In this document: positions 45,377 through 58,315 of the stretch, in pieces
Position numbering within the stretch: the stretch's first letter is position 1
Layout of the letters: each line of letters starts with the position of its first letter
Origin: Spongiibacter nanhainus
GTDB taxonomy: Bacteria; Pseudomonadota; Gammaproteobacteria; Pseudomonadales; Spongiibacteraceae
Assembly (NCBI RefSeq): GCF_016132545.1
Contig: NZ_CP066167.1
Coordinates: 2,941,001-3,005,000 of the forward strand
Length of the DNA: 64,000 bases
Direction of reading: 5' to 3'
Program-made: the position numbers and the translations under genes
The notes under the pieces: model-generated
Database searches by the model: none
What the model saw: only the letters and a program-made list of their open reading frames with translations
What the model was told of the DNA's origin: nothing

Positions 45377-46000
45377 ATGACCCGGATCGCCCACCTCATA
45401 GCGACTATCAACCGGCGCCTAGCTGCCAGCCTGGCACCACTGGACGGCCTGCCGGCCCTGGCCTTGCGGCTCTACCTTGTACCGGTGATGTGGATGGCGG
45501 GCAGCAGTAAGTTGATGCACTTTCAAGATACCGTCAATTGGTTTGGCAATGACGATTGGGGATTGGGACTGCCCTTTCCTACCTTGATGGCGGCCCTGGC
45601 CACCGCGGCTGAGCTGGGTGGAGCACTGTTCCTGGCGGTGGGTCTTGCCACCCGCTGGATTGCCGTTCCCCTGGCGGTCACCATGCTGGTCGCGGCCCTC
45701 ACCGTACACTGGGATAATGGCTGGCAAGCCATTGCCGATCCCAGTGCCCCCTTTGCCAATGAACAGGTCGAGGCCTCCGCCGCCAAGCTAGAGGCCGCTC
45801 GCTCCATTCTCCGAGAACACGGCCACTACGACTGGCTGACCGCCAGCGGCAATTTTGTAATCCTCAACAACGGCATCGAATTCGCGATGACATACTTGCT
45901 TATGTTGCTGGCACTCATCCGTACCGGCGGTGGCCGCTACGTCAGCCTGGATTACTGGCTGGGTCGGCGCTTCCAGGCAGGGCATCAGTGTGCTGACTAA
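45377..46000 (+). CDS. DoxX-family membrane protein
   Basis: A 207-residue DoxX-type protein with four membrane segments. ALALRLYLVPVMWMAGSSKL contains the usual N-terminal helix and small-residue motif; LATAAELGGALFLAVGLATR is the second helix pair with the conserved E-x-x-G. GNFVILNNGIEFAMTYLLML matches the C-terminal part. DoxX proteins are quinone-linked membrane proteins connected to oxidative-stress responses in several bacteria. It lies 121 bp before a sigma factor/anti-sigma pair on the same strand, an arrangement that suggests co-regulation; the link is inference. Confidence 0.86.
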   Translation: MTRIAHLIATINRRLAASLAPLDGLPALALRLYLVPVMWMAGSSKLMHFQDTVNWFGNDDWGLGLPFPTLMAALATAAELGGALFLAVGLATRWIAVPLAVTMLVAALTVHWDNGWQAIADPSAPFANEQVEASAAKLEAARSILREHGHYDWLTASGNFVILNNGIEFAMTYLLMLLALIRTGGGRYVSLDYWLGRRFQAGHQCAD

Positions 46001-46121
46001 TCTGGTGCTGGCTAATTTCGTGCAGACTAGGCCGGTGCCGACTGGGGCTTACGCCGCAGTTGCCTGTTTGTGGGTAAATCCGCCACACTATGGCCAGGAC
46101 TCCCGCACAACGGACAACACG

Positions 46122-46733
46122 GTGCCCAACACTTCACAAGACGCTCTACTCGCTCGCCTGCGGCGTGGTGACAACGAGGCCTTTCGGCAACTCATCGCCG
46201 ATCATCACCCTAAGATGTTGATCGTTGCCCGCTCTATAGTTGGCGACACCTTTGCCGAGGATGTGGTGCAGGAGGCCTGGGCATCGATCTATCGCGCTGT
46301 GGGACGTTTTGAAGGCCGCTCCAGCCTGGCCACCTGGATGTTTCAAATCGTTAGCAACGAGGCCAAATCTCGGTTGCGGCGAGAAAAACGTCAGGTCAGC
46401 TTTGGCGATATCGACGAGGCTGGCGCTACGCTGGACCCCAGCGCCTTCGACGAAAAGGGTCACTGGACCTCCCCCCCCAAGCGCTGGGATATCAATAGTC
46501 CCGAACTGATGTTGCAGGAAGATCAACTGCGGCACTGTATCGAGCACACGCTGACGACCCTGCCCGAAAAGCAAAAGGCCGTGTTTTTATTGAGGGACTT
46601 GGAACAGGTCGCGCTCACCGAAATTGCCGCCCTGTTATCCCTTGCCGAAGGCAACGTCCGGGTATTACTCCACCGCGCCAGATTGCGCCTGATGGACGTC
46701 GTTAATCATTATCAGGAGACAGGAGAATGTTGA
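46122..46733 (+). CDS. ECF-type RNA polymerase sigma factor
   Basis: About 203 residues from GTG 46122. The sigma-70 region 2 is clear (FRQLIADHHPKMLIVARSIV, then EDVVQEAWASIYRAVGRFEG and SSLATWMFQIVSNEAKSRLR), and region 4 follows (LTTLPEKQKAVFLLRDLEQV, LTEIAALLSLAEGNVRVLLH). An in-frame ATG at 45930 would overlap the DoxX gene and is unlikely; the ribosome site before the GTG is weak, so the start is moderate. Its end overlaps the anti-sigma gene by 7 nt. It redirects RNA polymerase to stress promoters when the anti-sigma partner releases it. Confidence 0.88.
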   Translation: MPNTSQDALLARLRRGDNEAFRQLIADHHPKMLIVARSIVGDTFAEDVVQEAWASIYRAVGRFEGRSSLATWMFQIVSNEAKSRLRREKRQVSFGDIDEAGATLDPSAFDEKGHWTSPPKRWDINSPELMLQEDQLRHCIEHTLTTLPEKQKAVFLLRDLEQVALTEIAALLSLAEGNVRVLLHRARLRLMDVVNHYQETGEC

Positions 46734-46993
46734 CGTGCAAAAAGGTCAGCGAGCGCGCCAGCGACGACATTGACGGCCACTACAAAGGTTGGCAAAAGCT
46801 GCAAATCCGTCTTCACCTGATGATTTGTTCACATTGTCGGCGCTTCCGTCGCCACCTCATCCACAGTCGTGACGTGGCCGCTTCCGTCGCAAAACAGCTG
46901 TGGAACAATGACAAGCGCGATAACACCGCGACGATTATGCGGCATATCGAACAAACACAGAGTGATCGTTCGGCCCCAAAAAGGCCAGATTGA
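46727..46993 (+). CDS. Zinc-finger anti-sigma factor (zf-HC2 type)
   Basis: An 88-residue protein with the zinc-binding anti-sigma motif: LTCKK near the start and HLMICSHCRRFRRHL (H-x3-C-x2-C) at about residues 30-44. It has no membrane helix, so it is a soluble ZAS-type anti-sigma factor that could sense redox state through its zinc thiolates. Coupled translation with the preceding sigma factor (7-nt overlap) supports the assignment. The tail after residue 65 is polar and disordered-looking. Confidence 0.86.
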   Translation: MLTCKKVSERASDDIDGHYKGWQKLQIRLHLMICSHCRRFRRHLIHSRDVAASVAKQLWNNDKRDNTATIMRHIEQTQSDRSAPKRPD

Positions 46994-47075: not shown

Positions 47076-48311
47076 CTACGGCGAAGGCATGGTGACACGG
47101 AACTCTGCGCCTTTACCCTCATCACTGACCACATCTAAGCGACCGCCGCTTTCATCCACAATGCGCTTGCAGATTGCCAGCCCCACTCCGGTGCCCGCCA
47201 GCTCCGGATCGCTGTTTAGGCGCTCGAACAAACCGAGGATGCGGGCATGGTATTGTTTGGCGATACCCACCCCATTATCGCGCACATAAAATCCGACCCC
47301 GGCGCCACTGGATGGTAATGGACCAATTTCCACTTTGGGCGTCTCGTGTCCGGCACTAAATTTTATGCCGTTGCCAATCAATTGCAGCATCAATTGTCGA
47401 TAGTGTTCTCTCACCCCGTGTGTGTGCCCCAAAGGCTGATGGTCAATCTGGACACCGGTTTTTCGAACCTCGTCGCCCAACTCATTAAGGACATCCTGTA
47501 ATAAGGTGTCGAGATCGAGATCAACCACTTCTCCCTCTTTGTCGCATTCAGAGTAATTGCGGAGGCCATCCACCATATTCTCAACCCGTTTATTGGCGCC
47601 CAGAATCATCTTTATGCACTGCCGACCTTCTTCGTCCAGGGAGTCTCCAAGCTTGTCGCTCAGCGTTTGCGCATACACTCGCACCGAGCGCAGCGGCTCG
47701 CGCATGTCATAAGCTGTGACTCGTGCGTACTGCCCCAAGACCTCGTTGCTGCGCTCCAGGGACGAGTTGGTTTTTTCCACCAGGGTCCGCATCAAACGCG
47801 CCTCGGCCAGTTCCCGGGTGCGCTGTTCCACCAATTCAGACAAATCATTGGACAGCCGCTCCACTTCTTGCTGCTTGCGCAGGCGCTCGTCGACTTCACT
47901 CTGCAATTGCTGGTTAAGCGCCATCAACTGGCTGTTGCTGGGTATGGCCAGGGCCTTGGGAATAATCGGCCAGATCAACACCGCGGTCCCCAATGACGCC
48001 AACGCCGTAATCAACTTCACCCCGCCACTGAGCCAATAGGCGCCGTGCCAGACGTTGTAGATATTCATCAGGTGCGTCGCCCCACAGGCAAAGATAAACA
48101 GGGCGAACATATAGAACAGCGAGTTGAACTTCAGGTCGTCGCGCTTGCGAACCAGATACACCAGCGCGAATGGGATGGTGAAGTACGAGACGGTGATAAC
48201 CACATCACTGATGACGTGGAGATAAACCAACTCCGGATTCCACAAATAGCAGTGGCCGTGGGGAGGCATCTCCGGCCCAAGCAACCAATCCCAAAATCCC
48301 TTCATTGGCAT
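47076..48311 (-). CDS. Ethylene-receptor-like membrane histidine kinase lacking the phospho-accepting His
   Basis: A 411-residue sensor. The three N-terminal membrane helices match the ethylene-binding domain of plant ETR1: SDVVITVSYFTIPFALVYLV with Asp36, and FALFIFACGATHLMNIYNVW with Cys76 and His80, the copper-liganding Cys/His pair of that family. A coiled coil (about 125-175) leads to a HisKA-like helix in which the usual HDxREPLR motif reads AYDMREPLRSV; the His is replaced by Tyr201 (codon TAT). The ATP-binding domain keeps its N-box-like LIGNGIKFS, the G1 box RDNGVGIA, ILGLFERL and GTGVGLAICKRIV. It probably acts without His autophosphorylation or with a partner kinase. It is a single-gene unit with no receiver nearby. 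Confidence 0.9.
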   Translation of the reverse strand: MPMKGFWDWLLGPEMPPHGHCYLWNPELVYLHVISDVVITVSYFTIPFALVYLVRKRDDLKFNSLFYMFALFIFACGATHLMNIYNVWHGAYWLSGGVKLITALASLGTAVLIWPIIPKALAIPSNSQLMALNQQLQSEVDERLRKQQEVERLSNDLSELVEQRTRELAEARLMRTLVEKTNSSLERSNEVLGQYARVTAYDMREPLRSVRVYAQTLSDKLGDSLDEEGRQCIKMILGANKRVENMVDGLRNYSECDKEGEVVDLDLDTLLQDVLNELGDEVRKTGVQIDHQPLGHTHGVREHYRQLMLQLIGNGIKFSAGHETPKVEIGPLPSSGAGVGFYVRDNGVGIAKQYHARILGLFERLNSDPELAGTGVGLAICKRIVDESGGRLDVVSDEGKGAEFRVTMPSP

Positions 48312-48491
48312 TCCTTTTCATATACCGGCTTTATTAATTTCAGCTGATGAGCTTAGTAGCCCCCTTCAGGCCATCCCTATGTGCTCGTAGTCATCCATTT
48401 TTAGCATACTCACAGTCTCAGAGTAGCAGGAATTCGGTGTTCTACTTATTTCCAGAGTAAATGTTGTTACGCATTGAACACAGAAATCAGA

Positions 48492-50108
48492 TCATTCCAC
48501 TTCACACTTCGCAGGAATATGACTCATAGCGTGTTCCGTCAACGCAGTAATGGTCAATGAGGGGTTTACCCCCAAGTTAGCACCCAGCACCGACCCATCG
48601 CAGATGTACAGGTTGCGGTAACCAAATACCCTTTGGCGATGGTCGATCACCCCCTCCTCTGCGCTCTTGCCCATTGCCGCACCTCCCATACAATGGGCTG
48701 TGGCCGGCAAATTGAACAGAATCTCAGTAATCAGGCTCCCAGCCATACCGCCCAGACGCCGCGCCATTTTCAACGCAAATTCATTGGCCTGGGGAATATA
48801 GGTGGGAATGCGGGGCCCATAACTGACCATGCGCTTGCTAAAGGGCCAATACCAGCGTCGCTGGTAACGCATATCGATATGCCCTTCCAGAGTTTGCATA
48901 CACAGAAAAATGACGGTCTGACGGGCCATGCCAAAGGGCGACAACAGCGGCAATACCTTGCTGGGCTTACGCACCAACAGCAGTAGCACAGTTCGCAACC
49001 AGGTCAGAATGCGCGTCCAGTCGGGGCGCCCTCGGGTCAGTGCCGTCACCAGCAAGCCCATAGCATCGGAGCCCCGGGGATAACGGGTGGCCTCAATATG
49101 GGTATGCTCATCCAGGTAGAAACCCGAACCTATGGCAATACCTCGATCCATCTCCGGTTTACCCGGTAAGCGCACCCCGATCAGGGACTCGGCATTGGTC
49201 CTAACCCGCCGCCCCAACTGATTGGAAATGTTGGGCAATGATCCCCTGTCCCGCAGTTCAAACAATAATTTCTGTGTACCCAGCGACGAGGCGGAAAACA
49301 CCACGCCCTTTACACGCCAGCGCCGACGCCGCCACAAGCCCGGCATCCAGCTGCTTGACGCCGTGGTCACCACGTAGCCCTCACTGCCATCTTTCGCATC
49401 ACCCAGAGGCTTCACATCCACCACTCGGGTTTCGGCAAACACCTGAGCACCCTGGCGCTCGGCCAGGTAGAGGTAGTTTTTGTCCAGGGTATTTTTGGCA
49501 TTGTAGCGACACCCCACCATACAGCCCCCACAACCTATGCAGCTGTTCCGGGCGGGGCCACGGCCTTCAAAGTAAGGGTCGTCATATTGCTGGCCGGGCT
49601 CGTCACCGGGGTCACCAAAAAACACGCCAACCTGGGTGCGGTAATAGCTGTCCTCTCGTCCCATTTCCTTGGCGCCCTCTCTGAGTAACTCATCAGCGGG
49701 ACCGAGGATGCGGTTTTCAGTCACACCAAGCATGCGACGAGCCGTATCGTAGTGACCGGGCATGACCGACTCCCAATCGGTAAGACCCGCCCAGCTTCCC
49801 TCACGCCACACCTTGGGTTTAGGCTGCAGAAGAGTGTTGGCATAGGTGATTGATCCCCCGCCCACAGCGTTGCCATGCAGCACCATGACATGTCGAAACC
49901 AACTGATCTTAAAGAAGCCTCGCCACCCCAAGCTCGGTTGCCACAACCAGCGCCGCAGATTCCAGGTGCTGCTGGGCAACTTATCCGGGTCCCAGCGGCA
50001 GCCCATCTCCATCACCCCAACTGAGTAGCCTTTTTCTGCCAGGCGCAGGGCCGAGACAGCACCGCCAAAGCCGGAGCCCACAATTAAATAGTCAAAATCA
50101 TAGTTCAC
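48492..50108 (-). CDS. GMC-type FAD oxidoreductase (cholesterol-oxidase-like)
   Basis: A 538-residue flavoprotein beginning with the FAD motif YLIVGSGFGGAVSALRLAEK. GNAVGGGSITYANTLLQPKP and NSCIGCGGCMVGCRYNAKNT (a Cys-rich CxxCxxCxxxC region found in this GMC/cholesterol-oxidase branch) follow. Near the C-terminus are TAHCMGGAAMGKSAEEGVID and ANLGVNPSLTITALTEHAMS, the GMC signature with the catalytic His and Asn. No export signal is visible. It likely oxidises a sterol or other secondary alcohol in the cytoplasm. It is divergent from a TetR gene whose promoter region has a nested palindrome, so the pair is probably a repressor and its target. Confidence 0.87.
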   Translation of the reverse strand: MNYDFDYLIVGSGFGGAVSALRLAEKGYSVGVMEMGCRWDPDKLPSSTWNLRRWLWQPSLGWRGFFKISWFRHVMVLHGNAVGGGSITYANTLLQPKPKVWREGSWAGLTDWESVMPGHYDTARRMLGVTENRILGPADELLREGAKEMGREDSYYRTQVGVFFGDPGDEPGQQYDDPYFEGRGPARNSCIGCGGCMVGCRYNAKNTLDKNYLYLAERQGAQVFAETRVVDVKPLGDAKDGSEGYVVTTASSSWMPGLWRRRRWRVKGVVFSASSLGTQKLLFELRDRGSLPNISNQLGRRVRTNAESLIGVRLPGKPEMDRGIAIGSGFYLDEHTHIEATRYPRGSDAMGLLVTALTRGRPDWTRILTWLRTVLLLLVRKPSKVLPLLSPFGMARQTVIFLCMQTLEGHIDMRYQRRWYWPFSKRMVSYGPRIPTYIPQANEFALKMARRLGGMAGSLITEILFNLPATAHCMGGAAMGKSAEEGVIDHRQRVFGYRNLYICDGSVLGANLGVNPSLTITALTEHAMSHIPAKCEVE

Positions 50109-50933: not shown

Positions 50934-51698
50934 CTAGCTCAACAGTAATCGCGGCGCGTCCTGGTCCAGGGCCCCACTATGGGACCGCCAATCCGGCATA
51001 ACCTGGTCCATTAAGTCATAGAAGCGACGACTGTGTTGAAACTCCTCCAAATGGCATAGCTCGTGGACGATGACGGCATCGATACAAGCTGGAGCAGCCT
51101 TGATTAAGTGGGTATTGAGGCACACCTCTCCCTTGCTGGAACAACTGCCCCAGCGCGCCCGCATCCGCCTCAAACGCAGCGGCGGCGGTGTCGATACCCA
51201 CTCAATTTGCCGGCTCCAGTGCATCAGGCGATCCTTAAAGACCACTTCGGCCCGCTCCCGGTACCAGTGATTGATTGCCGCCGACACCTTCGTTGGTGCC
51301 GGATCGGCCGTCTGCACAAGCAGAGAGTCCCCCTGCAGCAGGCATCGTCGCCGCCGACCCAGCGCCACATTCAAGCGCAGGGTTTCGCCGAGATAGGGGA
51401 TGTCGCAACCTGATTCAAAGGATGGGGGACGCAGTTCGGGGCGGCTTGCTGCCTCTGCCAACCGCGCCTCGATCCAGGCTTGGTAGCGATATAACATTGC
51501 ATCGATATCAACTTGCGGAGCGCCTTGGGGCACCCGCAATTCCACGGTCCCACTTGGGGCAACACACAATGACATGCGCTGACGCCGCCGCGCACTGCGC
51601 ACTAAAGTGTATGTCAGCGCCCACTCACCAATGCGAATGTGGCGCGACTCTCGGGAGCTTCCGTTGCGGCGGAGCGCTTGGGGTCGCAAGCTCACCAT
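50934..51698 (-). CDS. YgjP-like (DUF45) zinc metallopeptidase
   Basis: A 254-residue protein with the UTP-pyrophosphatase/YgjP-type metal-dependent hydrolase domain. Zinc motif HELCHLEEFQHSRRFY contains HExxH with the downstream His, and RRMRARWGSCSSKGEVCLN is the conserved WGSC segment. ATG 51698 shares TAATG with the preceding kinase gene, fixing the start. It has no signal peptide. The family is present in most bacteria; the in vivo substrate is not settled. It is probably the last gene of the two-component operon. Confidence 0.86.
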   Translation of the reverse strand: MVSLRPQALRRNGSSRESRHIRIGEWALTYTLVRSARRRQRMSLCVAPSGTVELRVPQGAPQVDIDAMLYRYQAWIEARLAEAASRPELRPPSFESGCDIPYLGETLRLNVALGRRRRCLLQGDSLLVQTADPAPTKVSAAINHWYRERAEVVFKDRLMHWSRQIEWVSTPPPLRLRRMRARWGSCSSKGEVCLNTHLIKAAPACIDAVIVHELCHLEEFQHSRRFYDLMDQVMPDWRSHSGALDQDAPRLLLS

Positions 51699-53239
51699 TA
51701 TGCCTCCGTTTTGGGAGGCAGCTGCTCGGCGGTGGGAAGGGGAAATTCGCAACGAAAGACCGCACCGCCGCCAGGTGATGGCCGGTGTCGAATATCGCCG
51801 CCGTGACTTTGCATAATTGATTGAGACACAGACAAACCAATACCCATGCCCCCCTCTTTAGAGGTCACAAAGGGACTGAATAATTGCTCTTCAACCTCGG
51901 GTGCCAGGCCAGGCCCGCTGTCCTCTACTTCGACGATGACATGCCCCGATTCCCTAAAGCTGCGCACCTGTACGGGGGCGTCACTGCCAGACTGCGCCGT
52001 GGCTTCCATGGCATTGCGAATCAGGTTTAACACTACCTGCTGCACCTGCACTTCGTCGATAAAGATATCGGGCAGATCCGGGTCGGCCACTAAGGCGACA
52101 TGCACGCGATTGACCCGCGAGTCGACTTCCGCAAGGGCCAGCACGTCCTCAAGCACTGTATTGATGGACTGCAACTCTCGAGCCCCAGAGGGCTTTTTGA
52201 CATAGGTGCGCATGCGTTGAATCACCGCAGAGGCGCGCTGGGCCTGAGTGGCAATTTTACTCATCACATCATCCAGCTTATCGGCGGTCTCACCGGGCAC
52301 CTGCTCCAGCAGACGCTGGGCCACCCGCGCGTAGTTGCTTACCGCCGTCAGTGGTTGATTGACCTCGTGGGCAATGCCGGCCGCCATTTCGCCGCCGGTG
52401 CTCAGGCGCTCAATATGTGCCAAATGCTGGCGCTGGCTGTCCATCTCTGCCCGAGCGTGTTCCAGGGCTCGCTGGCTGGCCAACCACTCGGAGATATCAC
52501 GCAGTACCAGCACTGCACCACCGCCTGTTAAAGGGGAGCCGGTCAACGCCACTGGCAGTATTTCTCCACTATCCTGATACAAATCAACATGGTCGTGCCG
52601 CAGACTGGCGCCCTCCTCGTAGAGCTGAGCGAGTCGCTTGTTGAGCTCGCCATTGCGGAATAGCGCCAAGCGGCTGAGTAATTCTCCCAATGCATCTGAC
52701 GCCGCCCACCCCGTCAATTCGGTAGCTCGGGCATTCATGGCAGTAATCCGGCCTTCGCCGTCCAGCGAAAAAATACCCTCTTCCACCGCATCCAAGATGC
52801 GCTGATTTTCGTCTTCCAATTCGCTATTGCGGCGGGCCAGCGCCTGCTCCAGACGCTGGATTTTGATATGGGTTCGAACCCGAGCCAGGACCTCTTCAGA
52901 CTGAAAGGGTTTGCCGATGTAGTCGACACCGCCTATAGCCAGCCCGTGAACTTTGGATTGGCTGTCGGTGAGAGCGGAGAGAAAAATCACTACAATATCG
53001 GCCGTTTCGGGGTCTGCTTTGAGACGTTCACACACCTCAAAACCGTCCATTCCCGGCATCATGACATCCAGCAGCATCAATACCGGTTTGGCGCGCCGTG
53101 CGGTATACAGTGCGGACTCCCCATCCCTGGCGGCCAACAGTCGATAGCCGCTGCCCTCTAGGGTTTTAAACAGTACTTGTAGATTGGTGGGGTTGTCATC
53201 CACCAGCAGTATCTGTTCGCCACCGCGACTAGGCGTCAT
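51698..53239 (-). CDS. Receiver-PAS-histidine kinase (FixL-like)
   Basis: A 513-residue cytoplasmic sensor. A receiver domain (ILLVDDNPTNLQVL, phospho-acceptor Asp in MLLDVMMPGMDGFEV) is followed by a short coiled coil, a PAS domain (about 148-265, DAVEEGIFSLDGEGRITAMN, AVLVLRDISEW), a HisKA domain with intact His (AAGIAHEVNQPLTAV) and a HATPase domain (LNLIRNAMEAT, VEDSGPGLAPE, GMGIGLSVSQSI). It ends in an atypical FPLPTAEQLPPKTEA. Overlap with the large hybrid kinase is 11 nt. With the FixJ-type regulator divergent from this operon, it likely forms a two-component pathway; the input is unknown. Confidence 0.9.
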   Translation of the reverse strand: MTPSRGGEQILLVDDNPTNLQVLFKTLEGSGYRLLAARDGESALYTARRAKPVLMLLDVMMPGMDGFEVCERLKADPETADIVVIFLSALTDSQSKVHGLAIGGVDYIGKPFQSEEVLARVRTHIKIQRLEQALARRNSELEDENQRILDAVEEGIFSLDGEGRITAMNARATELTGWAASDALGELLSRLALFRNGELNKRLAQLYEEGASLRHDHVDLYQDSGEILPVALTGSPLTGGGAVLVLRDISEWLASQRALEHARAEMDSQRQHLAHIERLSTGGEMAAGIAHEVNQPLTAVSNYARVAQRLLEQVPGETADKLDDVMSKIATQAQRASAVIQRMRTYVKKPSGARELQSINTVLEDVLALAEVDSRVNRVHVALVADPDLPDIFIDEVQVQQVVLNLIRNAMEATAQSGSDAPVQVRSFRESGHVIVEVEDSGPGLAPEVEEQLFSPFVTSKEGGMGIGLSVSQSIMQSHGGDIRHRPSPGGGAVFRCEFPLPTAEQLPPKTEA

Positions 53240-56200
53240 TCAAACTGGCCCCTTCGACCTGCCGCTGCAGTAACTTCAACAGCCTGCCAAAATCAAAATC
53301 CGCTAACATTGCCTCCGCCTCGTCGCTAAAGGCGTCACACTCGGGGTGGGACTGCCTCAAGGTGTTGAGCTGCTCCCGCAGAGCAGTGATATCACCCAGT
53401 TCCGCCGCTTCGGTCAGCGCCTGACGAATTGCTTCAGGCGGCCCAGCAAGCTCTACCTCCTGGGTAACTGGAGCGTCTACCTCTTCCGCACTTAAGGGCT
53501 CAGCACCGCAGGTTTCGGCCAACACCCGGAACAGCTCATCCATGCCAATCGGCTTGGGCAAGAAGCCATCACAGCCCGCTCGAATCGCCTCTGCCATCAG
53601 GTCGTCGTCAGTCGCGGCTGATGCCATGATGACGTGCACATCATGCATTTTAAGTTCGTGTTTGATCAGCCTTGTCGCTGCCAGGCCATCCATTACCGGC
53701 ATACGCAGATCCATCAGCACCAAGTTCGCTGTGCGATCTTTAAGTAAATCGATCACCTCTCGACCATTGGCCGCTTCGCGAATGTCGTCGGTCACGTCCG
53801 ACAACATACCGGCCAGCACCTGCCGGTTAACCGCCACATCGTCGGCAACAATGATGGCAGGGTTATCAATAATCTTATCGCTGGGTAGATCGCCCTCGAC
53901 GTCCCTTGCCAGTGCCTTGGGCGCTTCCTCTTCGGCCACTTCCATCAGTGGGATATCAAAATAAAAGCAACTACCATGGCCGACTCGACTGCGCAGGTTG
54001 AGGCTGCCGCCCATGGCTTCCACCAACCGGCGGCAGATAGACAAGCCCAAGCCAGTACCCTTGCCATCCTGGGGGTTAACCTGTTTGAAGGGCTCAAATA
54101 CGTCTCGTTGCGCCTCTTCAGGAATGCCGACGCCGGTGTCAGTCACACTGAAGTCCAGTTGGTTGTTGCTGAAATCCGCAGTGATTTTCAAATGCACACT
54201 GCCGTGATCGGTAAACTTCACCGCATTGTCCAGCAGATTAACCAGCACCTGCCGCAGTTTTACCTCATCAAGCTGAAGCCGCTTGGGAACTAGGTCGTCC
54301 AAATCCACCACAAAATCCAGCCCCTTGCCCCGAGCGCGGTGGGCGACAATATCGCCAACATTGGTAATCACCTCGTCGATATAGGTAGGCTGGCATACGA
54401 TATTGATATTGCCACTTTCAATCTTGGCCAGATCCAGAACATCGTTAATCAGGTTGAGCAGGTGCTTGCCGCAGCTCTCGATAGCACGGAGATACTCCTG
54501 GCTCCCGGAGGGCAGGCCCGACTCCCGTTGCAATAGTTGGGCGTAGCCCAACACACCGTTGAGGGGGGTGCGCAATTCGTGGCTGACACTGGATAGAAAC
54601 TGGCTTTTGGCATGGAGTGCATCTTCGGCGGCAATACGGGCATCCACCAGGTCCTGCTCCATGCGCTTGCGCTCAGTGATATCGATCATAATGCCCATCG
54701 CACGGGTGGGCTTGTCCTGCATATCGATTTCCACCACGTCGCCGCGGCTGTAGATCCAGTGGTAGCGCCCGGATCGATCCTTGATTCGGAATTCAACGCT
54801 GTTGCCCGTTGCCAGGCCTAACCAGCTGTCCACTGCCGAGGCAATGATCTGTAGATCGTCAGGGCACGCGACGTATTTATAGGCACCCACCGGGTAGGGA
54901 TCGGCGGGTGGCTCGTAGCCCAACATGCGGAAAAAACTGTCGCTGACGGTGACATAACCAGTGGTCAGATCGAGATCCCACAGGTGGTTCTGGGCGGCAT
55001 CCAGAGCAAGATGAAAGCGCCGTTCGCTGAGCTTTAGGGCCTGCTCAGTCTCGGTGCGCTTCTCAACCATATAGTTGGCATCCTCTGCCAAACGCTGAAA
55101 CTCGGCGAATGGCAGCCGATTGATATCAATCGCTGTGGATTTTTTGCTGGCATCGGCAAAGAACTGCTGAAAGATGGTAAAGCCCGATGCGCTGCGGCGG
55201 GCAAGCCACTGGGCCGCCACCGCCGACACCACCATCAAGCCCAAGGCAATGGCAATAATAAAAGCGATGTGCTCCCGCACCCGATTTTGCAGTTGCGCAC
55301 GCTCAGCACTGAGGCGCTCGTTGAGTTGATCCAGGAAAACCCCTGAACCCAGGGTCCAGCCCCAGGGCTCATACTGCCGCAGATAAGACACCACCGGCTT
55401 GGAGTCGCCCTGTTTATCGGTCCAGGACAGCTCGGTAAACAAACTGTCTTCCTCTTGTCCCAATCGCTTTCCTGCCTCGATCACCCCAGGCATAGGCTCG
55501 CCAACGGAATCAGGGTCGTAGGCGTTGACCAGTTGCCGGCCCTGGTTGTCGACAAGAAAGAGAATTGAATTATTGGGATCCACCGGCACCGCGGCGATGC
55601 GCTCTATCACCTCCCGCTGGGTGCGGGCAATTTCATCCCGCAGGTAGAGGCTGGCACCGAGATAGATATCCAGCGGCTTGTAGTGATAGACAAAGCTGAA
55701 GTTGCGCGCCGTGTTGGCGCCATCAGGCCGGGTAAAGCGATATTCGATAAACTCGAAATTCTTCTCTTTGGTGACCTGCTGAATCTGCTTGGCAAAGGCC
55801 TCCAGCACAGCCTTATCCTCGAGGCGCATCTCGCCATCGGGGTGAACAGGCGGCAACACGGCATTGCCAGCGGCGTCGAATAAAAAGAAGAAGCCTTTGT
55901 TGTTTTCCTGAAAGCTAAGGGAGGCAAGGGTGGTTCGCAGGCGGTTGATCTGGGCACGCCTACTTTCGCCAACATATTCCTTGCGAGTGTTCTCGATCAG
56001 CGACAGACCGATGGCGATCTGCTGCCGCAACTCCAGGTAGAGTTGACGGTTAAGCTGGTTGCGACGAAACTCCAGGTATTCAACCGCCTTATCAACCTCG
56101 CGGCGCAGCAGCTCTCGCCGCGATTCTATGTAGCTGTCGCGCCACTCCTGACTCTGCTGGGTGTAGCTCTCGTATTCCTTGGCTATCCAGATATAACCCA

Positions 56201-56282
56201 GCACCGCCAGCGGGATCGCCGATAGCGCGACCAGGCTGATCAGGTAAATTTGTACTAAACTGCGCTTGGCTCGCATGCGCAC
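53229..56282 (-). CDS. Membrane hybrid sensor histidine kinase (sCache-PAS-HK-REC)
   Basis: A 1017-residue sensor. A membrane helix (about 9-30) is followed by a periplasmic region of about 300 residues with two Cache-like halves (FFFLFDAAGNAVLPPVHPDG, ILFLVDNQGRQLVNAYDPDS), a second helix (IAFIIAIALGLMVVSAVAAQ) and a PAS/PAC domain (GYVTVSDSFFRMLGYEPPAD, MGIMIDITERK). HisKA has its His (SSVSHELRTPLNGV), then HATPase (LLDNAVKFTDHGSV, DTGVGIPEEAQ, GTGLGLSICRRLVEAM). A C-terminal receiver (LVLMDLRMPVMDG) ends the chain. It begins an operon with the REC-PAS-kinase and the YgjP gene. Cache domains bind small organic ligands such as carboxylates; the ligand is unknown. Confidence 0.92.
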   Translation of the reverse strand: MRMRAKRSLVQIYLISLVALSAIPLAVLGYIWIAKEYESYTQQSQEWRDSYIESRRELLRREVDKAVEYLEFRRNQLNRQLYLELRQQIAIGLSLIENTRKEYVGESRRAQINRLRTTLASLSFQENNKGFFFLFDAAGNAVLPPVHPDGEMRLEDKAVLEAFAKQIQQVTKEKNFEFIEYRFTRPDGANTARNFSFVYHYKPLDIYLGASLYLRDEIARTQREVIERIAAVPVDPNNSILFLVDNQGRQLVNAYDPDSVGEPMPGVIEAGKRLGQEEDSLFTELSWTDKQGDSKPVVSYLRQYEPWGWTLGSGVFLDQLNERLSAERAQLQNRVREHIAFIIAIALGLMVVSAVAAQWLARRSASGFTIFQQFFADASKKSTAIDINRLPFAEFQRLAEDANYMVEKRTETEQALKLSERRFHLALDAAQNHLWDLDLTTGYVTVSDSFFRMLGYEPPADPYPVGAYKYVACPDDLQIIASAVDSWLGLATGNSVEFRIKDRSGRYHWIYSRGDVVEIDMQDKPTRAMGIMIDITERKRMEQDLVDARIAAEDALHAKSQFLSSVSHELRTPLNGVLGYAQLLQRESGLPSGSQEYLRAIESCGKHLLNLINDVLDLAKIESGNINIVCQPTYIDEVITNVGDIVAHRARGKGLDFVVDLDDLVPKRLQLDEVKLRQVLVNLLDNAVKFTDHGSVHLKITADFSNNQLDFSVTDTGVGIPEEAQRDVFEPFKQVNPQDGKGTGLGLSICRRLVEAMGGSLNLRSRVGHGSCFYFDIPLMEVAEEEAPKALARDVEGDLPSDKIIDNPAIIVADDVAVNRQVLAGMLSDVTDDIREAANGREVIDLLKDRTANLVLMDLRMPVMDGLAATRLIKHELKMHDVHVIMASAATDDDLMAEAIRAGCDGFLPKPIGMDELFRVLAETCGAEPLSAEEVDAPVTQEVELAGPPEAIRQALTEAAELGDITALREQLNTLRQSHPECDAFSDEAEAMLADFDFGRLLKLLQRQVEGASLNDA

Positions 56283-56432
56283 CCTTCGAGGACACGATAA
56301 TTGGCAAAAGCTTAGCGATTATGCGGGGTTACCGCTAGTCCGCAGCCATTTTTTATTCTCCGGAACCTTGTTCAGAGCACAAATCGTGCTAGTCTTTGGC
56401 CGATAACATCGATTAGCCGGCAAGGACCTACC

Positions 56433-57053
56433 ATGACTACTGAAGCCACCGTTTATCTGGTTGAGGACGACGACGCAGTACGAGACTCACTGCAGATGGT
56501 ATTGGAATCCGTGGGTCACAAGGTGGCCGCCTACTCCCGGGGGGACGCCTTTCTAGAGGACTTTTCCACTGAGATGGCTGGCTGCATGGTACTGGATATC
56601 CGCATGCCCGGCATGAATGGCATGGAGCTGCAACGCCAGCTAAACAGCCGCAACTCCATCCTACCGATCATTTTTGTTACCGGCCACGGCGACGTCCCCA
56701 TGGCCGTAGAGGCCATGCAAAAAGGCGCGGTGGACTTCGTACAGAAACCCTACCGGGAAGAAGAACTGCTGGGCAAAATCCAGCAGGCCATCGCCGCCGA
56801 CGCCGAAAGCCGCGCCGAACTGGCCGAAAAACACAAAATTGTCGAACGCCTGCAGGAACTCACTCCCCGAGAGAAGCAGGTCATGGATTTGATGATCGAG
56901 GGCAAAGCCAACAAGGTGATTGCCTTTGACCTGGATATCAGCCAGCGCACCGTGGAAATTCACCGCGCCCGAGTGATGGAAAAGATGGGCGTGCGCTCTT
57001 TGGCCCACCTGGTACGCATGGTGATGGCCGTCGACGAAAACTCCAGCTCGTAG
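56433..57053 (+). CDS. FixJ/NarL-family response regulator
   Basis: A 206-residue regulator with a receiver domain (about 5-118; phospho-acceptor Asp in GCMVLDIRMPGMNG, FVTGHGDVPMAVEAMQKGAV and VQKPYREEELLGKI) and a LuxR-type HTH (LTPREKQVMDLMIEGKANKV, DLDISQRTVEIHRARVMEKM). The FVTGHGDVPMAV segment is typical of FixJ/TodT-type regulators. It is divergent from the two-kinase operon and likely takes phosphate from them to control unknown target genes. A 9-bp stem-loop touches its stop codon. Confidence 0.93.
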   Translation: MTTEATVYLVEDDDAVRDSLQMVLESVGHKVAAYSRGDAFLEDFSTEMAGCMVLDIRMPGMNGMELQRQLNSRNSILPIIFVTGHGDVPMAVEAMQKGAVDFVQKPYREEELLGKIQQAIAADAESRAELAEKHKIVERLQELTPREKQVMDLMIEGKANKVIAFDLDISQRTVEIHRARVMEKMGVRSLAHLVRMVMAVDENSSS

Positions 57054-57076: not shown

Positions 57077-57331
57077 GGCCCCCCCTCGCCGTCATGGTGA
57101 GACCTCGGGTACACACGATGGACATGCAACGCGATGTCCACCCTTGTATCTCTCCAAGGTGATGGGTTAGCTTCCCGTTGCCTACTGGCCGGGGTGTAGG
57201 ATGTGTCCACCCTTAGCTCTCGAAGCTGCGACGTAGATTATCCTCCCGGCCTCTCATCTTTGACATTGAATGGTATCCAAGCGCCCGGCATTAGGGCCGG
57301 TGACGCTGCATGGACAAGGGGAATTGGAAAG
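57077..57331 (+). ncRNA. Non-coding left end of IS110 element, bridge-RNA candidate
   Basis: About 255 bp between the stem-loop after the regulator and the start of an IS110 transposase holds no gene. In IS110-group elements the long non-coding left end encodes a bridge RNA that pairs with target and donor DNA. Two copies of TGTCCACCCTT (57135-57145 and 57204-57214) lie within it, and a G/C-rich inverted stretch (CCGGCATTAGGGCCGG near 57283-57298) could form a stem-loop. The exact left boundary and the RNA ends are not visible from sequence alone. Confidence 0.4.
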
Positions 57332-58315
57332 ATGACAGACGTTGTTGGGATCGATGTGAGCAAGGCAAAGCTGGATTGCCTGTGGCTTCGGGATCGCGCC
57401 ACCTTGAAGGTGAAGACCAAAGTGATGGCCAATGACAATAAAGGCCATCAAGCACTGTGCCAATGGTTGCCCAAGACCTTAAAGCTTGAGCCTGCACAAA
57501 TTCTGGTGGTGATGGAAGCGACGGGGATTTACCACGAGAAGGTTGCCCTCACCTTGCACGATGCCGGCTTTCGGGTTGCGGTGGTAAACCCGGCCCACAT
57601 CAAAGCCTACGCCCAAAGCCTGGGCAATACCCACAAGACGGACAAGCAGGATAGTTTGATCATTGCCCGCTTTGGCGCTGAACGCGACCCTGCGCTCTGG
57701 CAGCCTGAGCCGCTGGAAATCCGTGAACTGAAGGCACTAATCGCCCGCTTAGAGGCGCTGGAAGTGGATTACCAGCGAGAATCCAACCGCCTAGAGAAGG
57801 CGGAACTCCGCCCCTCATCACAGACAGTTTTAGACTCAATCCACACCATGCTCAACGAGCTGGAGAAGGCGAAGCGTCGTATCGAAGAGGATATCGATGA
57901 CCATATTGATCGCCACCCTGGGCTCAAGCACGACAAGGCCTTACTGGAGAGCATCCCCGGCGTGGGAAAGGTGGTCAGCCGTCTGATGCTGTCGGTGATC
58001 CATAGCCGGGATTTTACGGGCGCCAAGCAAGTCGCGGCTTATCTTGGCCTGATTCCCACCCAGGTGGAATCGGGGGTGTTCCGAGGACGCAGTGCACTGA
58101 GCAAACGAGGGCCGGCCTCGGTGAGAGCGAAACTGTACATGGCGGCTGTGTGCGCCAGCCAATGCAACCCGGATGTCTCGGCGATGAAAGAGCGATTACT
58201 GCAGAACGGGAAGAATCACATGCAGGCCATCGGTGCTGCCATGCGTAAATTAGTGCATATCTGCTTTGGTGTGATCAAAAATCAAACGGAATACAGGCCG
58301 CAAACGGTGTCATAA
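57332..58315 (+). CDS. IS110-family transposase (DEDD recombinase)
   Basis: A 327-residue transposase with an N-terminal RuvC-like DEDD domain (VVGIDVSKAKLDCLWL, LVVMEATGIYHEKVAL, HKTDKQDSLIIARFG carrying the D-x-x-D) and the C-terminal Transposase_20 domain (LLESIPGVGKVVSRLMLSVI, AAYLGLIPTQVESG, LSKRGPASVRAKLYMAAV) with its catalytic Ser region. ATG 57332 has GGGGAATTGGAAAG upstream; an in-frame start at 57203 extends into the non-coding end and is rejected. Length is usual for the family and no break is seen. No terminal repeats or target duplication are visible, as is typical of the IS110 group. Confidence 0.93.
   Translation: MTDVVGIDVSKAKLDCLWLRDRATLKVKTKVMANDNKGHQALCQWLPKTLKLEPAQILVVMEATGIYHEKVALTLHDAGFRVAVVNPAHIKAYAQSLGNTHKTDKQDSLIIARFGAERDPALWQPEPLEIRELKALIARLEALEVDYQRESNRLEKAELRPSSQTVLDSIHTMLNELEKAKRRIEEDIDDHIDRHPGLKHDKALLESIPGVGKVVSRLMLSVIHSRDFTGAKQVAAYLGLIPTQVESGVFRGRSALSKRGPASVRAKLYMAAVCASQCNPDVSAMKERLLQNGKNHMQAIGAAMRKLVHICFGVIKNQTEYRPQTVS

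Follow-up and report, generated by a model that had tools for sequence, protein, structure and literature searches.

A putative ethylene receptor with a proposed pseudo-histidine-kinase module in Spongiibacter nanhainus and the recurrent absence of the acceptor histidine among its relatives

The described systems closest to the gene considered here are the bacterial ethylene receptors SynEtr1 (Synechocystis) and AzoEtr1 (Azospirillum), in which an N-terminal three-helix ethylene-binding domain (EBD) precedes a histidine-kinase module; SynEtr1 is said to require its kinase (PMC11819568). The plant receptors of subfamily II (ETR2, EIN4, ERS2) combine an EBD with a diverged kinase module that lacks the canonical histidine. 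In PMC3485614, histidine kinase activity is described as playing a minor role in plant ethylene receptors, the receptor is proposed to keep CTR1 in an active conformation, and subfamily II is credited with an additional hydrophobic domain at the N-terminus as well as with Ser/Thr kinase activity. A further parallel is the Caulobacter pseudokinase DivL (PDB 4q20), in which Tyr550 replaces the histidine; DivL is inactive both as a kinase and as a phosphatase, it binds DivK~P, and one of its relatives has Ala at the acceptor site (PMC4211667). Here we analyze a gene of this kind in a stretch of 64,000 nucleotides of the Spongiibacter nanhainus genome (assembly GCF_016132545.1, contig NZ_CP066167.1, positions 2,941,001 to 3,005,000), referred to as the window. 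It encodes a protein, hereafter the window receptor, that joins an EBD to HisKA and HATPase_c domains and carries Tyr at the position of the phospho-accepting histidine. In window coordinates, its features are the following.

47076..48311, minus strand: EBD-HisKA-HATPase_c protein of 411 aa, ethylene-receptor-like putative pseudo-histidine-kinase (open reading frame (ORF), Pfam, full-length relatives in 18/18 genus genomes)
47943..48230, minus strand: EBD (PF25487 ETR1_N), residues 28-123 (Pfam, AlphaFold2 model)
48204..48206, minus strand: Asp36, candidate EBD ligand-site residue (invariant 21/21)
48084..48086, minus strand: Cys76, candidate Cu(I) ligand (invariant 21/21)
48072..48074, minus strand: His80, candidate Cu(I) ligand (invariant 21/21)
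47550..47732, minus strand: HisKA / DHp domain, residues 194-254 (Pfam)
47688..47714, minus strand: H-box AYDMREPLR, residues 200-208 (sequence, orthologue alignment)
47709..47711, minus strand: TAT codon, Tyr201 at the phospho-acceptor position (sequence, phmmer, orthologue alignment)
47082..47414, minus strand: HATPase_c (CA domain), residues 300-410 (Pfam; N314, D345-N346-G347, G349, G375 and G377 invariant 21/21)

The ORF begins with ATG and contains zero internal stops. All three domains exceed their Pfam cut-offs, namely ETR1_N at residues 28-123 (129.2 bits, cut-off 27), HisKA at 194-254 (31.9 bits, cut-off 26.9) and HATPase_c at 300-410 (74.7 bits, cut-off 26.4), which by sequence fits the original prediction of an ethylene-receptor-like kinase; no Pfam match to a PAS or a GAF domain was obtained in this protein. 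Relatives were compared in a genus set of 18 genomes (window genome included) and in a family set of 21, which adds three genomes of a sister genus. The predicted Asp36, Cys76 and His80 are present and, together with Y43, I46, P47 and I73 of the EBD, invariant in 21/21 family members. We take D36, Y43, I46, P47, I73, C76 and H80 to be the counterparts of ETR1 D25, Y32, I35, P36, I62, C65 and H69, and Cys76 and His80 presumably act as Cu(I) ligands, as in plant ETR1. The protein is probably a copper-dependent ethylene receptor of the membrane.

The ATP-binding boxes, predicted to be intact, have their core residues N314, D345, N346, G347, G349, G375 and G377 invariant in 21/21, and G373 is Ser in one of the 21 members. 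Codon 201 is TAT, one base away from CAT, within A-Y-D-M-R-E-P-L-R. The phmmer search paired ‘vtaYdmrepl’ of the window receptor with ‘vasHdikepl’ of 8f71, the kinase domain of the bacteriophytochrome RpBphP2, and this pairing with the histidine of 8f71 puts Tyr201 at the phospho-acceptor position. The ORF reading, phmmer and the orthologue alignment all bear out the predicted Tyr from TAT at this site. With Tyr201, the H-box offers no histidine for phospho-transfer, and as judged from the loss of the acceptor, function of the window protein as a canonical histidine kinase is excluded.

In comparison to SynEtr1 and AzoEtr1, the window protein lacks the acceptor His and a PAS match, and no response-regulator gene directly adjoins it. 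Plant ethylene receptors have a GAF domain between the EBD and the kinase; unlike those of subfamily II, the window protein has no GAF match, shows a continuous helix 126-224 in its model and is devoid of the extra N-terminal hydrophobic domain (the EBD match starts from residue 28). Plant subfamily II receptors act on CTR1, whereas the window protein has an intact ATP core and its loss of the His arose inside one bacterial genus. DivL shares the Tyr at the phospho-acceptor site of the DHp-CA module and is a Foldseek match of the model, but it has PAS domains and binds DivK~P, whereas the window protein has an EBD as input, no PAS match and no known DivK-like partner. RetS and GacS (PDB 6dk7, 7z8n), in which one kinase module controls a second kinase, are also Foldseek matches of the window model; their sensor differs, and no partner is known for the window protein.

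A full-length relative without stops was found in 18/18 genus genomes, and the 17 others match from residues 3-6 to residues 409-410. The alignment of these orthologues at position 201, proposed as a check in the original prediction, revealed His in six, Arg in seven, Glu in three, Asp in one and Tyr in one. Hence 12/18 genus members are non-His (11/17 if genome G013, 84% complete and 7% contaminated, is left out), while His is present in 3/3 members of the sister genus. The codons at the non-His position are CGA, CGG, CGT, AGA, GAG, GAA, GAC and TAT, the first four of which all encode the Arg of the seven species. The occurrence of four replacement residues in 12/18 genomes is attributable neither to chance nor to base-call error. 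The original prediction had named His orthologues combined with evidence of a sequencing error as its counter-evidence; orthologues with His do exist (6/18), but there is no sign of an error. Its suggestion of a role for the Tyr as such in accepting phosphate is not supported, given that the orthologues carry Arg, Glu, Asp or His there. No common chemical property of Arg, Glu, Asp and Tyr is evident except not being His. At the same time, positions 201-210 (RDIKEPLRSI) are invariant over the seven Arg species while the Arg codon varies, and so the Arg replacement itself looks to be kept by selection, beyond mere tolerance.

In the receptor tree, the Tyr protein falls with those bearing Glu and Asp (95/90), and three His proteins that lie in the same gene block as the window receptor (in-block, see below) group with the seven Arg ones (99/96). 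Both groups were retained after removal of the H-box columns (95/90 and 98/94, respectively), and a single clade of all non-His rows was rejected by the approximately unbiased (AU) test (p = 0.0208). The His-with-Arg group was also obtained from nine joined flanking proteins, with a value of 100 in the Shimodaira-Hasegawa-like approximate likelihood ratio test (SH-aLRT), and the rpoB tree, which covers nine genomes of this group, supported these at 100/100, rpoB having been found in 19/21 genomes. The out-of-block His copies of the genus (G011, G012 and G015) cluster together in the receptor tree, whereas by rpoB G011 sides with the His/Arg group (91/97), apart from G012 and G015. The minimum number of changes between His and non-His is two on the receptor tree, two on the flank tree and three on the rpoB tree, and over all residues at position 201 it is four on each of the three trees. 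These topologies imply at least two losses of the acceptor His, or one loss and one regain, with losses seeming likelier. Judging by the trees, the non-His state is non-recent and recurrent.

The ratio of nonsynonymous to synonymous substitution rates (dN/dS) was computed for 14 pairs, of which four, none including the window protein, had usable dS in all four domains. It was about 0.035-0.066 over the four domains in the Glu pair G008/G009, 0.006-0.085 in the Arg pair G003/G010 and 0-0.083 in the His pair G001/G004, and it reached up to 0.32 in the linker of the sister-genus His pair G018/G020. According to these values, the receptor is under purifying selection in all domains where this is measurable. 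The possibility of a pseudogene was ruled out by the open frames in 18/18 genomes and the low dN/dS. The EBD is the most conserved part of the receptor family. The ratios of DHp to EBD change, taken on a fixed tree and compared without a significance test, were 3.8 for the Arg, 2.0 for the Tyr and 3.7 for the Glu lineage, versus 5.8, 2.3 and 7.6 for three His groups.

AlphaFold2 was used to model the window protein (from 23 sequences; mean predicted local distance difference test (pLDDT) 79.8, predicted template modeling score (pTM) 0.53) and the Asp member (from 20 sequences; 78.6 and 0.51). Both models display three EBD helices, a helix of 97-99 residues, the second helix of the DHp and a CA fold; as monomers with moderate pTM, they are uninformative on partners. 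The EBD helices of the window model span residues 26-56, 63-89 and 92-113, and they are followed by the long continuous helix 126-224; only a short helix, 4-11, modeled with low confidence, precedes the EBD. Among the best 50 of 441 Foldseek matches of the window model, most are histidine kinases, including DivL (4q20), RetS and GacS.

Outside the genus, the picture is different with respect to the acceptor. The EBD family is present in 21/21 genomes of the taxonomic family, 31/244 genomes of the order (10 of the 31 from the window's family; 28 over the cut-off), 16/369 genomes of the class (12 over the cut-off) and 29/398 genomes of the phylum (28 over the cut-off), where the order, class and phylum samples take in kin of the narrower samples. 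Matches below the family cut-off were left out of the reading, as was one above it, a 26-position fragment in G848. In the order and class, 33 EBD proteins were read, 14 of them without an H-box alignment (L154 and L128 among these); L154 is the second EBD protein encoded by the window genome itself, and L141 was dropped as a GGDEF protein. The 19 proteins scored at the acceptor comprise 17 with His by alignment, one with His by eye (L128) and one with Asn. In the phylum set, 26 were read, three lacked an alignment and 23/23 of those scored have the acceptor His. Additional alignments that L147, L208, L217 and L219 gave beyond the HisKA part were disregarded. Altogether, the His is kept in 41/42 scored EBD-kinases outside the window's family (one scored by eye). 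Since nearly all of them retain it, frequent loss of the acceptor His is, in the genomes sampled, characteristic of this genus rather than of EBD kinases in general, with one other case existing. This case, at L138:2686-3945 in genome G068 of another family of the order, is an EBD-kinase with Asn at the acceptor and no HisKA match, and by its taxonomic position it is a separate loss; its own family is represented by two genomes, one of which has an EBD. A wider contig scan yielded 13 relatives, with matches starting at residue 99 or later, and a plasmid search returned 1897 records, every one of them below 60% identity (best listed 33.6% over 91% of the query).

The same survey revealed EBD proteins of other architectures. 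The second EBD protein of the window genome (L154:580-2406, G000:C1:1521732; 609 aa) has the order EBD-PAS-PAS-GGDEF and is possibly an ethylene-responsive diguanylate cyclase; in each of the other 20 genomes of the family there is a single EBD match. An EBD protein of 411 aa at L149:760-1992 (G278) has a C-terminal part without a Pfam kinase match, perhaps eroded, and L130, L135, L140, L145 and L153 are short EBD frames of 148-215 aa in which a motif scan shows neither kinase nor GGDEF output.

In the non-His members of the genus, the acceptor has been lost while the ethylene-binding part has been kept, so their signaling probably involves no autophosphorylation. We propose, with a probability of roughly 0.6, that the window protein is a pseudo-histidine-kinase ethylene receptor which signals conformationally through a partner and not by autophosphorylation of a canonical His. 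Ligand binding would alter the conformation of the EBD dimer, the long helix (predicted 126-224) would relay this change to the DHp/CA module, and the latter, as a putative nucleotide-binding pseudokinase, would bind and allosterically control another protein without donating phosphate. The partner might be a receiver domain or another histidine kinase. By analogy, kinase-independent signaling similar in principle to that of plant ethylene receptors and DivL is most likely, and the parallel already drawn with plant receptors, which depend little on kinase activity, is supported, and strengthened by the 12/18 non-His members.

Several observations weigh against this proposal or the history behind it. 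The rpoB tree does not reproduce the clustering of Tyr with Glu and Asp, and the flanking proteins do not resolve it; moreover, a loss followed by a regain of His costs equal steps in the receptor and flank trees. The dS of the window Tyr protein is saturated in almost every domain comparison, which leaves conserved positions as the ground for its constraint. The DHp/EBD ratio of the Asp lineage is 19.8, the only one outside the His range of 2.3-7.6. A HisKA rescan of non-His members covered L104 (Arg), L115 (Glu) and L118 (Asp); all three pass the HATPase_c cut-off and none passes that of HisKA, L104 scoring 22.0 against 26.9 and L115 and L118 having no match. Finally, the Glu and Asp members are short of about four residues near the ATP lid.

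The alternatives differ in what they make of the kinase module. The invariance of the ATP-site core in 21/21 members despite the loss of His in 12 would suit a pseudo-subunit of a heterodimer, whose intact CA domain phosphorylates the His of the partner's DHp in trans and thereby feeds a phosphorelay. Other EPLR-type H-box kinases of the genome are candidate partners, and the window genome has at least one such paralogue with His (L239:3843-5834 of G000). However, this paralogue aligns at just 31% identity over residues 156-395, and the DHp of the scanned Glu and Asp members has diverged past HisKA recognition, so we consider a heterodimer unlikely. That divergence, the rapid DHp change in the Asp lineage and the position of the EBD as the most conserved part would all be expected if the kinase output had been lost lineage by lineage, with the EBD alone still needed as an ethylene or copper binder and the rest a remnant. 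Such relaxed decay is rather improbable in view of the low dN/dS of DHp and CA in the Glu and Arg pairs, the invariant ATP-core residues and the conservation of RDIKEPLRSI over seven species; in addition, the Arg, Tyr and Glu ratios of DHp to EBD change stay within the range of the His groups, again without a significance test.

The remaining alternatives retain catalysis or dispute the residue itself. An ethylene-tuned receptor that works only as a phosphatase, dephosphorylating a response regulator without the His, could draw on Asp202 and Glu205, which are retained in the Tyr and Arg members. The HisKA phosphatase motif has Thr or Asn four places after the acceptor, whereas the residue there is Glu; the Asp at +1 is gone in the Glu and Asp members (Gly, Gln), and no cognate regulator was found, all of which makes this role highly improbable. 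Tyr201 is phosphorylatable, stands at the acceptor site and is accompanied by preserved ATP boxes, as a tyrosine-autophosphorylating receptor would need, but Tyr occurs in only 1/18 members, the others having Arg, Glu, Asp or His, and DivL, with Tyr at the same site, showed no autokinase activity (PMC4211667); a substitute acceptor is therefore scarcely credible. As for a sequencing error or single-genome artifact, TAT is one base from CAT, but eight different codons in the 12/18 non-His genomes refute it for the group and leave it a negligible chance. The pseudokinase receptor acting through a partner thus remains the reading that we prefer.

The surroundings of the gene contain the following features.

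45930..46733, plus strand: ECF-type sigma factor, convergent neighbor (Pfam)
46727..46993, plus strand: zf-HC2-like small protein, possible anti-sigma factor (21.2 bits, just below the 22.2 cut-off)
48492..50108, minus strand: GMC oxidoreductase, upstream neighbor on the same strand, 180 bp away (family search)
51698..53239, minus strand: receiver-PAS-histidine kinase (family search; His in 13/13 orthologues found)
53229..56282, minus strand: dCache-PAS-hybrid histidine kinase with receiver (family search; His in 13/13 orthologues found)
56316..57050, plus strand: LuxR-type response regulator, open frame (family search)

The original prediction that no receiver or regulator is encoded nearby is wrong within 9 kb: the sigma factor gene lies about 0.3 kb past the end of the receptor gene, and the two receiver-bearing kinases and the LuxR-type regulator lie 3.4-8.7 kb off on its other side. 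An IS110-type transposase (window 57200-58312) adjoins the LuxR-type regulator. The same block around the receptor was found in 14 other genus genomes, and its content is BatA/B, EamA, DoxX, ECF sigma factor, zf-HC2, receptor, GMC oxidoreductase, TetR, YgjP-like protein, receiver-PAS-histidine kinase and hybrid histidine kinase (the names BatA, BatB, EamA and TetR of the window neighbors were assigned by eye). The block of L117 is without DoxX, ECF sigma factor and zf-HC2, and that of L118 is without the Bat/EamA side in the stretch fetched. Both neighboring kinases are visible in 13/14 of the other block genomes, L107 ending with its contig after TetR. Their His is kept in 13/13 orthologues of each, indicating that the change of the acceptor is specific to the receptor gene.

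The in-block receptors comprise all 12 non-His proteins and three with His, while the His copies of G011, G012 and G015 and those of the sister genus lie outside the block. In G011 the block is present, the receptor is absent from it and is found elsewhere; because the block exists there without the receptor, the out-of-block His copies may have been displaced or may have a different origin. This natural receptor-less site (L236:10805-12820) has TraF-like and acyltransferase genes in the block. Among four neighboring proteins of out-of-block His copies scanned with Pfam, no cognate response regulator was found (lipocalin, aconitase, one without a match and a TetR-type regulator).

An operon of the receptor with the GMC oxidoreductase is unsupported, because in the 14 other block genomes 1.4-2.4 kb with other genes intervenes (a TraF-like gene in 14/14 and an acyltransferase gene in 10/14). 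In the window, this spot has neither the TraF-like nor the acyltransferase gene, and 180 bp are left (48312-48491).

Among the titles and abstract openings covered, which did not extend to subscription papers, there was no report of acceptor-His loss in a bacterial ethylene receptor, and the available parts of PMC11819568, PMC4211667, PMC7700396 and PMC3485614 do not mention such a case; this is no proof of absence. We tentatively suggest, while regarding it as somewhat short of an even chance, that bacteria evolved, at least two times in one genus, dead-histidine-kinase ethylene receptors that allosterically control a separate protein, as plant receptors do with CTR1. If this is true, the series of His, Arg, Tyr, Glu and Asp orthologues, most of which occupy a single conserved locus, would document the shift from a phosphorelay to a conformational receptor. 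A genus with 12/18 His-less receptors, together with their His-bearing relatives, makes it possible to examine directly what output remains when phosphotransfer is gone, and whether ethylene signaling independent of a kinase had more than one origin.
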